Part shown: positions 13,842 through 41,597 of the stretch, piece by piece | Position numbering within the stretch: position 1 is the first letter of the stretch | Layout of the letters: each line of letters opens with the position of its first letter | NCBI RefSeq assembly: GCF_014697025.1 | Contig: NZ_JACJRC010000005.1 | Location: forward strand, 1-64,000 | Length of the DNA stretch: 64,000 nt | Reading direction: 5' to 3' | Origin: Alkalinema sp. FACHB-956 | GTDB lineage: Bacteria > Cyanobacteriota > Cyanobacteriia > Leptolyngbyales > Leptolyngbyaceae | The notes under the pieces: generated by a model | Database searches by the model: none | What the model was told of the DNA's origin: nothing | The model's input: the letters and a program-made list of their open reading frames with translations, nothing else | Made by a program: the position numbers and the translations under genes

Positions 13842-13995
13842 TGGATTCAGCAATGGGAATTTATTCGAAGCGCATACACGGGTTTTAGCGATCGGGTTTT
13901 AGCGATCGGGTTTTAGGGACAGATAAACTTGGGAGACTGGAAGGCGATCGGGTACGGGTATCATTTGACACCCGATCGATTTTTGTAAATACGGA
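13842..13995. other. spacer with a short direct repeat
   Basis: The sequence AGCGATCGGGTTTT occurs twice in a row at about 13888-13915. Otherwise no gene is seen before the promoter at 13996. Confidence 0.5.
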
Positions 13996-14024
13996 TTGAC
14001 AGGGGTCTGCTTTCTTCGTAATCT
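13996..14024 (+). promoter_or_regulatory. strong consensus-type promoter for candidate RNA
   Basis: TTGACA at 13996-14001 and TAATCT at 14019-14024 are separated by exactly 17 bases, close to the ideal housekeeping sigma consensus. The expected transcription start is around 14031-14033. The first downstream coding start is more than 360 bases away, beyond a strong terminator. Confidence 0.7.
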
Positions 14025-14031
14025 AGCTTTT

Positions 14032-14264
14032 CATAGCGGTTCCGTGGACATCCTTCTTTCAGTTTGGCTTACGATTGACGGTACGGTATGAAGCACGGGG
14101 CCGCTGGGATCCTGAAAATTTAGGGCACTACCCTTTGTTGTGGGAGCAACTCCGGGTAGCTATTCCCCCTCGCTGCGTGAACAGCAAGGAGGCTTGTTGA
14201 GAATTTTAACATTCGATCGAGCCACTCTTGTTTGTGATGTCAAACGGGGTGGCTCTAAATTTTT
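14032..14264 (+). ncRNA. candidate structured noncoding RNA, about 230 nt
   Basis: The segment lies between a near-consensus promoter (13996-14024) and a strong intrinsic terminator (14219-14264). It contains no credible open frame and folds well by eye. AGCGGTTCCGTG (from about 14035) pairs with CACGGGGCCGCT (to about 14108) using two G-U pairs. A second hairpin has CTACCC and GGGTAG arms with an inner GTTG/CAAC stem (about 14128-14160). The terminator hairpin closes the transcript. I could not match it to tmRNA, RNase P RNA, SRP RNA, Yfr1 or the cyanobacterial glutamine riboswitch. It could be a free small RNA or a long attenuated leader of the small gene at 14394. Confidence 0.55.
14219..14264 (+). 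terminator. intrinsic terminator of the candidate RNA
   Basis: GAGCCACTCT pairs with GGGGTGGCTC; after one bulged T the stem continues GTTTG/CAAAC around the loop TGATGT, giving about 15 base pairs. It is followed by TAAATTTTT. This is one of the strongest terminators in the window, and no recognised gene ends within 370 bases upstream of it. Confidence 0.8.
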
Positions 14265-14278
14265 GGGCTTCTTTAGAT

Positions 14279-14364
14279 GCCCTCATCCCCGGTTATTCTC
14301 CCGCAGGAGCAGGGAGAATGTGATCGGCTTCCCTCTACCTCTGGGAGGGGGTTAGGGTGAGGGC
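14279..14364. repeat. dispersed-type inverted repeat element
   Basis: The element starts GCCCTCATCCCC and ends GGGGTTAGGGTGAGGGC, with an internal TTCTCCCGCAGGAGCAGGGAGAA hairpin-like core. The layout and the sequence CCTCACCCTAACCC (reverse strand) resemble a widespread bacterial intergenic repeat seen in many genomes, likely a small nonautonomous element. Only one copy is present in this window, so its dispersal cannot be shown here. Confidence 0.6.
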
Positions 14365-14393
14365 AAAGACTCACTACAAGGAGAAGCTCAGTT

Positions 14394-14612
14394 ATGGCAA
14401 AAGGTTCTAGCGATCGGAGCGATCGTGAAGTTCAACCTGAGAAACAACGCTTGCAGATCCACTTAATTGGTCACAAGGAGTTCGTGCAGGATACGATTAA
14501 TCAATTCCATGCCCATCGGATCGCCGATCGGATTCATTGGAGTCAACCGATGAAGATTGTGCATTCCGACGGGCAATACATCAGCATATTGAGTCGCGAA
14601 CGGCTGCGATAA
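14394..14612 (+). CDS. small conserved-looking protein, unknown function
   Basis: 72 residues. AAGGAG precedes ATG 14394 at 10 bases, a good ribosome-binding site. The protein is charged and soluble, with many histidines in the middle (HLIGHKEF, FHAHRIADRIHWSQPMKIVH). There is no signal or membrane segment. I do not recognise the family. It sits between a repeat element and a long spacer and is probably a single-gene unit. Confidence 0.6.
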   Translation: MAKGSSDRSDREVQPEKQRLQIHLIGHKEFVQDTINQFHAHRIADRIHWSQPMKIVHSDGQYISILSRERLR

Positions 14613-15208
14613 CGGTTGCAGCATCAGTGTCCCGCAGGCTCATTAATGATCTAATGGACTGCGGACACCTCGGTCATCTCTCCGTCATTGATCTAAGGTA
14701 CTTGAGTCAGAAGGTTTCCTAGATGCGATCAAACAGCCTGGGAAAATCAGGCATACATGACGCTAATCAGGAATGAAGTTGACTGGGTAGCACTACCTCT
14801 GAATCATAAGGGTGCCCAAAAGTTAGCTGTTAGAAACAGTAAACAGCCGGACAATATACCCGAACCGGAGTTATCTGTCTCGATCTAGGATAATAACATT
14901 ACCCAGATTGGGGCGAATTAAATTGGATAACAGCTTATTTAGGTAGTTATCCGCTTAGAGCCATATATACTCATACTAGAAGTCCTTGGTAGGGACACAG
15001 CCAAAAGCTTGTCCGTCAATGTTTAAATTGAGTAAGCGTGTGATTAGTGAAGATGAATCTTTAAGGTTAGCAATGAAGTGATTGAGCGAGTCCTACTGAA
15101 ATTATCTGGCACTGCAAAAAAGATACTGACAACGTTAGTGCTACATGGATGTTGGGAATCATAATTGCAGAAAACTTCTGCTATCTAGCAATTATCTGCA
15201 AGGCAACT
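14613..15208. other. long spacer without a gene
   Basis: About 600 bases, more A/T-rich than the neighbouring genes. Open frames here are short and unconvincing. An in-frame ATG at 15149 would extend the next protein by 20 residues, but there is no ribosome-binding site. No tRNA, terminator or clear promoter is seen. Confidence 0.5.
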
Positions 15209-39489: not shown

Positions 39490-40392
39490 TTATGCATTTG
39501 ACTGTGACTCGCGGCGGAAGAGATGCCCATGCTCTGCATTATAGAGCCGCGATCGCGGACTGCCCTCCGCCAAGGGTCGATTGTTATAGCCATACTCCGC
39601 CGGAATGGTGGCACTGGTCAGGGCGGGACTAATCAGATACATCGTGGTGCGAATGAGTTGCTCCCGTTGGGTCACTTCTGCCATCTGATACAAGGGAACG
39701 AGCAAAATCTTTTCATCGGGCCAACCAAGGCGAAAACAAATCGCGATCGGCATTTCCGGGGGATAGTGTTGCAGCAATTTGGCCTGGGCTGCTTCCACAT
39801 GGCGAGCACTGAGATACAGGCAAAGACTGGCCTGGTGGGCCGCCAAGGTCGATAACTCTTCTGCGTCCGGCACTTGAGTCCGGCCACTGATGCGGCTCAG
39901 GATAATCGTCTGCACCACATTCGGCACCGTCAGTTCCACCCGAAGTCTGGCTGCTGCCAATTGGTACGCGCTCACCCCCGGCACAATTTCAAAGGGAATC
40001 TCGGCTTCCAATAGGGCGGACATTTGCTCTTGCACTGCGCCATAAAAGCAGGGATCACCATCGTGGAGCCGCACAACGGATTGTCCCGATCGCACCCGAT
40101 CGATCAAAATCGGCACAATTTCTTCTAGGGTCTTGTTCGCTGTGGGGATAATTTCGGCCTCCGATCGGGCCAGTTGCAGAATCTGCTGGGGAACTAGGGA
40201 ATCGGCATAGAGGATCACATCCGCCTGCTGGATCAAGCGCTGGGCTTTAACGGTCATCAGGTCTGGATCGCCAGGGCCAGCGCCCACGATATAGACCATG
40301 GGGGCCAACGGGTTAGCCGGAGGGATTGGAGGGGGGCCAGATTCAGGGGCAGATTGGGGAGAGAAAGCAGATTGGGGAGAGGAAAAGGTCAT
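39490..40392 (-). CDS. cobM: precorrin-4 C11-methyltransferase
   Basis: About 300 residues. After a Pro/Ser-rich N-terminus, the SAM-dependent tetrapyrrole methylase domain starts at MVYIVGAGPGDPDLMTVKAQRLIQQADVILYADSLV. Other motifs are RLHDGDPCFYGAVQEQ and IVPGVSAYQLAAARL, the CobM pattern. It methylates C-11 of the corrin ring in cobalamin synthesis. ATG 40392 is preferred over GTG 40416. A degenerate repeat of GCATTTGACTTAT type flanks the stop. Confidence 0.94.
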   Translation of the reverse strand: MTFSSPQSAFSPQSAPESGPPPIPPANPLAPMVYIVGAGPGDPDLMTVKAQRLIQQADVILYADSLVPQQILQLARSEAEIIPTANKTLEEIVPILIDRVRSGQSVVRLHDGDPCFYGAVQEQMSALLEAEIPFEIVPGVSAYQLAAARLRVELTVPNVVQTIILSRISGRTQVPDAEELSTLAAHQASLCLYLSARHVEAAQAKLLQHYPPEMPIAICFRLGWPDEKILLVPLYQMAEVTQREQLIRTTMYLISPALTSATIPAEYGYNNRPLAEGSPRSRLYNAEHGHLFRRESQSNA

Positions 40393-40439
40393 CGCAAGCT
40401 TCAGGAAGGTGATCACCCAGCAAGTTGTGTACCAGTTTT

Positions 40440-40730: not shown

Positions 40731-41597
40731 TTACTGCAAAGCCCGAGGAGTTGCATCGGGAGCCACCACATCGGGCAGCGATCGCTTCAGGCCATAAAGC
40801 CAAGCCAAGCCTGCAATCCCTAGCAGCACGCCTGCCAAACTGACCATTTGCGCCATTTTCAGCGGCCCTAACATCAAACTATCCATCCGTAGTCCTTCAA
40901 TCCAGACTCGACCCAGGCTGTAGAGAATGGCATAGATGAGAAATAGGCTGCCCGATTTCAGCGTCAGTTTGCCTTGCCGATCGCGAATGACGAGAAGCAT
41001 CAGGATGCCAAACACCATCACATTCCACAGAGACTCGTAGAGAAAGGTGGGATGGTAATAAGCCACCGTTTCTAGTCCCGGCGGGCGCTGACTCAGGGGA
41101 ATCAAAAGCTTCCACGGAACATCCGTCGGGGCTCCATAGGCTTCGGAGTTAAAGAAATTGCCCCAACGCCCGATCGCTTGACCTAAAATCAGCGCCGGAG
41201 CCACAATATCCGCCAACCGCCAAAAGGAAATATTGCGCACCTTCGCAAAAATCACAGCCGCTAACATGCCCCCTAAAATTGCGCCATGAATGGCAATTCC
41301 CCCCTCCCAAATGGCGATCGCCTTACTGGGATTGGCGGCGTAGTCCTTCCATTGGAACAGGACGTAATACAGCCTTGCACAGGGTAAGGCCCCAATCACT
41401 AACCAGATGGCTAAATCATTCATCAGTTCAGGATCAATGTTTTGCCGATTGGCGAGCTTTTGGGACAAACTCACTCCCAACAACACCGCCGACGCAATTA
41501 ATAGCCCATACCAACGCACCACCACTGGCCCTAGGTGAAAGGCGATCGGGCCTGGAGAGGTAAACTCAGCAGCCAAAAGAACAGCGGAACTGACCAT
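40731..41597 (-). CDS. lgt: prolipoprotein diacylglyceryl transferase
   Basis: 288 residues with about seven membrane helices. Family motifs: [16 protein letters not shown] (about 28-43), HGAILGGML (about 104-112), [13 protein letters not shown] (about 142-154, with the signature Arg and Asn) and [12 protein letters not shown] near the end. It transfers diacylglycerol to the lipobox Cys, the step before LspA, which is also in this window. Confidence 0.97.

Follow-up and report, generated by a model that had tools for sequence, protein, structure and literature searches.

The 64,000-nucleotide (nt) stretch analysed here (the window; positions 1-64,000 of contig NZ_JACJRC010000005.1, assembly GCF_014697025.1, Alkalinema sp. 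FACHB-956) contains a unit made up of a structured RNA, framed by a putative promoter and an intrinsic terminator, and a small open reading frame (ORF) behind it on the same strand. The same genome harbors about 75 copies of this RNA, nearly all of them preceding a same-strand small ORF of one protein family. The first-pass annotation had described the segment 13996-14264 as a free-standing small RNA (sRNA) gene; it overlooked both that the segment is a dispersed repeat and that the unit continues past 14264 to an ORF at 14394-14612. The finding is therefore larger than first reported: not a lone sRNA, but a unit of RNA and small protein. Proximity to nitrogen genes, which had been offered as a hint of function, carries little weight because the unit occurs at about 75 places. 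The RNA and protein families both appear to be undescribed, in a layout of a known kind.

A DNA search of the genome with the window stretch recovered 43 matches at E <= 10, as befits a dispersed repeat. Alignment of the copies shows unrelated flanks, gradual edges, and a similarity that does not end at the terminator but continues into a small ORF, which has a ribosome site of the AGGAGAA type. A covariance model built from 66 of these copies (R1) finds 75 sense matches, comprising 68 strong ones (>= 109 bits) and seven weaker ones (57-64 bits); its 92 rows for this genome also include weak or decayed matches and antisense mirrors, the latter arising because the core is partly self-complementary. 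When candidate ends were screened by an end pattern, 8 of 71 failed; three of these were true class A copies and were restored, one was the copy at C3:84836, and four were chance matches, antisense mirrors, or decayed remnants. A related ORF lies 3' of 70 of the 75 copies (61 matched in the main ORF pairing, three more, and six of class D). The copy at C3:84836, partly decayed and counted among the 75, has an ORF broken by a stop, and the remaining four stop 54-169 nt short of a contig end, one of them still showing a ribosome site and the start of a class D ORF. In two of these four the sequence gives way to GTGTACACACAAGTC, whose reverse is present at other contig ends with two ORFs that have no RNA; we infer that these ends represent insertions between RNA and ORF. 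Relatives of the ORF itself occur at 70 places in the genome at E below 1e-5, which divide into class A with 25, class B with 12, and class C with 33. A fourth class, D, came to light through its RNA and has seven copies, six of them with the ORF in view. The spacing within the unit is close and fixed: the start codon lies a median of 34 nt past the core in 61 copies (within 60 nt in 44 of them), and a median of 35 nt past it in 55 further loci, six of which belong to this genome. Such a gap is mostly too short for a separate promoter, so the mRNA for the small protein would have to depend on read-through.

In the window copy, all parts of the unit lie on the forward strand. A TTGACA-17-TAATCT promoter occupies 13996-14024, with the -35 element (13996-14001) matching consensus at 6/6 positions and the -10 element (14019-14024) matching TATAAT at only 3/6. 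Promoter and terminator, previously described as near-perfect, are both present, but for the promoter the adjective was too strong. A simple scan found neither promoter-like sites (4 vs 3.7 +/- 1.9 expected, the site at 13996 being unlisted) nor terminator-like sites (4 vs 3.1 +/- 2.0 expected) to be enriched. The promoter is credible because its layout is conserved across copies: TTGAC[A/T/G]-TANNNT stands 5' of all 63 copies examined, with a spacer of N17 in 45, N18 in 17, and N19 in one. Just upstream, at 13956-13973, an imperfect palindrome (GGGTATCATTTGACACCC) could be an operator, and some class A copies have a similar form in the copy alignments. Transcription probably starts near 14031, as judged from the position of the -10 element. 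The 5' hairpin domain that would follow (P1, 14031-14106, from a single-sequence fold) varies by class. Next comes the conserved core (14107-14267), delimited by covariance models and covariation. Its closing helix, P2, pairs 14111-14126 with 14252-14267, the 3' strand including both the terminator U-tract and a conserved GGG. Within the core also lie hairpin P3 (14128-14159; variable tip TGGGAG at 14141-14146), hairpin P4 (14168-14189; variable tip CGTGAA at 14176-14181), and the terminator hairpin P5 (14219-14255), which has 15 base pairs with one bulge, a predicted energy of -22.5 kcal/mol, and TAAATTTTTGGG immediately after it. An alternative helix, P4b (14191-14223), would pair GGCTTG (14191-14196) with CGAGCC (14218-14223), and so compete with the foot of P5. 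The ribosome site AAGGAGAA (14378-14385), matched by sites before other ORF copies, precedes the 72-amino-acid (aa) ORF. The gap from core to start codon is 126 nt here, longer than usual; a repeat-like insert at 14275-14375 (CCCTCATCCCCGG...), found in some class A and B copies and not in others, stands between terminator and ORF.

The claim that promoter and terminator frame a structured RNA without a reading frame holds up. The 241-nt window RNA folds at -94.4 kcal/mol (z -4.68), with 0 of 200 shuffles as good, and the ORF scan found no frame of >= 60 aa wholly inside it; a 71-aa GTG frame at 14140-14355 overlaps the 3' half and extends beyond the terminator, with no sign of use. The RNA had also been said to fit no well-known family, and a search of Rfam 15 agrees, giving no match at curated score in the region or in 14 loci (the best sub-threshold match being whalefall-1, at 15.2 vs 37 bits); a known Rfam RNA is accordingly rejected. 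The families 6S, Yfr2/cyVA-1, HEARO, and NsiR1 are all in Rfam and so are covered by this result. Homologs were searched for compensatory changes, as had been proposed, and these are present. Across 56 diverse cores (the window copy plus 55 of 94 matches, with antisense rows, several near-duplicates, and some copies from this genome excluded), a MAFFT alignment made without structure keeps 87.6% of cells in P2-P5 paired, and both partners have changed at 27 of 40 pairs, including 7 of 10 in P2. The covariation score is 0.327, compared with 0.173 for shuffled alignments (0 of 500 as high) and 0.060-0.115 for slid versions of the structure; the structure was derived from the same alignment, which gives it an advantage over slid ones, and sequences that are related can score above shuffled ones even when unstructured. 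Despite these caveats, the covariation is convincing, given how large the difference is and that changes on both sides are spread over all five helices. P2 has a particular consequence, in that it would join the U-tract to an A-rich strand about 130 nt upstream; in the lowest-energy fold, six or more of the 12 nt at the 3' end are paired to the 22 nt at the 5' end in 63/63 cores from this genome and 50/52 from others. P4b is complementary in 50-55 of the 56 sequences at the four columns tested, so that the foot of P5 can alternatively pair with an upstream GGCU.

The small proteins are under selection, since codon positions 1 and 2 vary far less than 4-fold degenerate sites: 0.063 vs 0.335 in class A, 0.126 vs 0.552 in class B, and 0.162 vs 0.477 in class C, with 9-17 4-fold sites per class. 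No model of Pfam, NCBIfam, or PADLOC matches the family (0 of 50 members against PADLOC and Pfam), and PDB sequences include no relative below E 0.6 (best E 0.63). An AlphaFold2 model predicts a beta-alpha-beta-beta core (mean predicted local distance difference test score, pLDDT, of 77; predicted template modeling score, pTM, of 0.58). Foldseek comparison of this model with the PDB returned no significant fold (best E 0.69), and the scattered NusE/S10 matches at E above 1 are no evidence of relationship. Relatives are present on plasmids; a search of phage records with one query protein found none.

The unit is not restricted to Alkalinema. Of 388 genomes from the same class, R1 detects the RNA in 82 (this genome included), representing 41 of 160 genera; seven candidates were scored per genome, so copy numbers from that survey are lower bounds. 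Plain DNA searches are weak by comparison, giving a match below E 0.001 in only one of 57 other genomes. A DNA-pattern search found seven stretches, in FACHB-471, Cyanothece sp. SIO2G6, Leptolyngbya sp. SIO4C5, Leptolyngbyaceae SM1_4_3, and an Oscillatoriophycideae metagenome-assembled genome, all of which R1 also matches at E below 1e-8. A scan of named genomes for the small protein found none, in a set from which the Alkalinema genome itself may be absent. A second covariance model (R2), built from the 56 diverse cores, gave 24, 14, 10, 8, 7, 7, 4, 1, 0, and 0 sense matches in ten chosen genomes; these 75 are what remained of 81 rows after six antisense rows (one a fragment) were removed, and one of the 14 (L235) is false. 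The pairing with the protein extends to other genomes. The 60 R1 loci examined comprise eight from Alkalinema and 52 from a further 48 genomes; at 55 of the 60, the protein family lies 3' of the RNA on the same strand, including 49 of the 52 from other genomes; the five without it are two Alkalinema loci at contig ends and three loci elsewhere. The protein profile was iterated on those same loci, and before iteration, with Alkalinema proteins only, 51 of 60 fell below E 0.05. In the ten genomes, the protein lies <= 500 nt downstream of 60 of the 75 RNA matches, with none wrongly placed. The other 15 comprise the false match, five that precede decayed, insertion sequence (IS)-like, or other sequence, and nine, all in one genome, that stand ahead of a different small protein (eight of 66-75 aa and a ninth with an internal stop), which by eye appears to be of the same family. 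RNA and protein therefore co-occur, but asymmetrically: the protein is often found alone, the RNA almost never.

Several loci depart from the common form. The nine units just mentioned (L226-L234 in G191) are near-identical and form a further subfamily, in which the closing helix differs (GCTTAAGG with CCTTAAGC), the small protein has a similar pattern, and the tips of P3 and P4 again vary. One RNA copy (L237, G006:C1:3629105-3629264) lies 45 nt before a DNA methyltransferase-like ORF, not a small protein. Four plasmid relatives of the protein (L246, L249, L251, and L254) have no RNA, but another GC-rich inverted repeat just 5' of the ORF.

The tips of P3 and P4 behave unlike the rest of the RNA. 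The core varies less than neutral sites (pi 0.07-0.12 vs 0.33-0.55 at 4-fold sites), and across the full set of copies tip variation is roughly on a par with that of the promoter spacer. Among 13 pairs of units with 4-fold divergence below 0.1, mean tip difference by group is already 0.29-0.67 for P3 and 0.54-0.58 for P4, and it is 0.33-0.60 and 0.45-0.60, respectively, for 46 pairs at 0.1-0.2; each pair has few 4-fold sites (in G191, those of the first 30 codons), the pairs are not independent, gene conversion is possible, and one tip (C1_279752) was misread. For 21 pairs with 4-6% divergence outside the tips, the tips differ by 42% on average, compared with 60% when shuffled; in the two closest pairs, they differ by 0 and 23%. 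Plain neutral drift of the tips is disfavored, as they are near plateau already at low synonymous divergence. In this comparison the tips change much faster than synonymous sites of the ORF, which suggests diversifying selection. In class C, 7-nt P3 tips follow C-U-N-N-N-A-A (C in 18, U in 14, A in 18, and A in 18 of 19), a U-turn-like form suited to base pairing. For 60 of the 61 copies whose ORFs belong to class A, B, or C, pairing between tips was not in excess (285 of 500 permutations as high), nor were tip matches to the 4 kb on either side (54 of 1000 for the reverse complement of P3, and 389-877 of 1000 for the others).

We favor the reading that the RNA is a structured 5' leader of the small-protein gene, with a terminator that must be read through (an "actuaton" or attenuator layout), and consider this about as likely to be right as wrong. 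Transcription would start near 14031, and at P5 the polymerase would either stop and set free a folded transcript of about 230 nt, or continue into the ORF. In the closed fold, P2 would occupy the U-tract and P4b would hold the foot of P5; in the alternative state, a full P5 with an unpaired U-tract would form a free terminator, so that the two folds would be mutually exclusive at the decisive place. Termination would leave the stable closed RNA. The output of small protein would then be set by a factor favoring one fold, the likeliest candidates being the encoded protein and a small molecule. The unit itself has multiplied, reaching about 75 copies in this genome and anything from several to dozens in other cyanobacteria. 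This reading is favored because an ORF follows nearly all copies at close and fixed spacing, a covarying terminator stands between RNA and ORF, P2 covaries and closes nearly all cores in the lowest-energy fold, and the protein is under selection. In the window copy, moreover, the two states are predicted to lie 6.7 kcal/mol apart (-62.3 for the closed fold and -55.6 for the free terminator).

A number of observations weigh against it. Three of the 52 RNAs in other genomes lack a family ORF, and 5 of 75 in the ten genomes precede decayed or unrelated sequence. Conversely, 72 of 132 protein places in the ten genomes have no detectable RNA upstream (60 have one), and R2 at E <= 1 was unmatched at the nine plasmid and five chromosomal protein loci checked; with so many loci of this kind, the protein does not need the RNA. 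On average, the closed fold is predicted to beat the best free-tail fold by 10.5 kcal/mol in cores from this genome and 13.2 in others, a gap that drops to 4.2 when the first 20 nt are shuffled. A free terminator would thus need folding kinetics or help. P4b shows little covariation at the columns tested, with one pair changing on both sides among the Alkalinema copies. Finally, a plain leader does not explain tips that outpace synonymous sites.

A rival explanation is that the RNA itself does the work, serving as a scaffold to which the small protein binds and whose fast-changing P3 and P4 tips would each recognize a different RNA, DNA, or protein partner. The genome would then encode about 75 addressed RNA-protein particles, and read-through would only keep RNA and protein in step. 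The nearly exclusive partnership with one protein family, the constrained core, the early divergence of the tips, and the U-turn-like form in class C all fit this explanation. It is harder to reconcile with the lack of excess pairing among tips or to flanks (where only 4 kb was covered), with the small tip differences in the two closest pairs, and with the many protein genes that have no RNA; we regard it as unlikely, if the most serious of the alternatives. A related and slightly more doubtful proposal is that the units constitute a repertoire, in which RNA scaffold and protein are constant and two tips of about 5-9 nt have been diversified faster than synonymous sites across some 75 units. 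If so, each unit would address a partner different from those of the rest, which could be nucleic acid of the host, of a plasmid, or of a phage, or else a sister unit.

The dispersal of about 75 copies among unrelated flanks, the patchy presence across genomes (82 of 388), the plasmid relatives, and an order of RNA, terminator, and ORF that resembles type III toxin-antitoxin systems could instead point to a small, spreading selfish or mobile cassette, whose RNA and protein would serve its own copying, control, or toxin-antitoxin-like upkeep. Yet the 50 members compared with PADLOC and Pfam gave no recombinase, toxin, or defense match, the RNA contains no tandem repeat, the edges are gradual, the one-query phage search was empty, and synonymous divergence, above 0.2 in most pairs, marks the copies as old; we therefore find this explanation improbable. 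Least probable is the original reading as a free-standing regulatory sRNA, which would then lie near a small gene by chance. Its own promoter, strong terminator, and compact fold would suit such a gene, but a nearly constant 3' ORF of one family, in this genome and across many other genera, leads us to reject it.

Known systems offer partial parallels. Riboswitches and protein-autoregulated attenuators are structured leaders with competing folds. The present RNA resembles them in its conserved, covarying P2-P5, its terminator, and its alternative pairing P4b (which hardly covaries), and differs in serving a single gene family, in its dozens of copies and fast-changing tips, and in having a candidate switch with no known ligand. 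Type III toxin-antitoxin systems of the ToxIN kind share the order of promoter, RNA, terminator, and ORF; here, however, there is no tandem-repeat array within 13996-14267, and the 72-aa protein has no match of the ToxN, toxin, or defense kind (0/50). Unlike the bridge RNA of IS110 or the omega RNA of IS200-605, the partner is a small protein with no Pfam match (50 members), not a recombinase or nuclease. Miniature inverted-repeat transposable elements and simple mobile repeats may be compared with copies that here have unrelated flanks and gradual edges. Another parallel is the actuaton of Synechocystis, described as an sRNA with a terminator before a sense gene that has no start site of its own, so that mRNA arises by read-through; at least ten individual actuatons, fused to various genes, are given there (PMC5386190). 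The likeness lies in an RNA with a terminator followed by a sense protein gene (70/75 Alkalinema copies and 49/52 other loci). Start codons at <= 60 nt from the core in 44/61 copies would leave little room for a separate start site. The difference is that one structured RNA family is here joined to one protein family, in up to about 75 copies per genome. In Nostoc PCC 7120, another study reports multicopy sRNA candidates defined as start-site-plus-terminator segments, some in near-identical transcribed copies (PMC4734099); these might include the present RNA family. Cyanobacteria are stated to lack Rho in a further report (PMC13289151). Our literature search found no description of either the RNA or the protein family, within a reach that excluded most subscription journals and all supplements.

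The unit contributes a family of structured RNAs and a small-protein family that has no name, found in a large part of the cyanobacteria searched (41/160 genera). Seventy-five copies in this genome, and 24 in another, would be unusual for a leader RNA. A single genome with dozens of paralogs, constant in scaffold but fast-changing at the tips, offers a ready natural experiment.

Two further observations concern the surroundings of the unit. Immediately 3' of it, window positions 14693-14967 are 80.5% identical to part of a sequence elsewhere in the same genome (L075, 4550-4824). Farther along the forward strand, 40635-40693 matches the Rfam family NsiR1 (48.5 bits vs a gathering score of 39), flanked by reverse-strand ORFs that by eye resemble cobM (39490-40416) and lgt (40731-41597).
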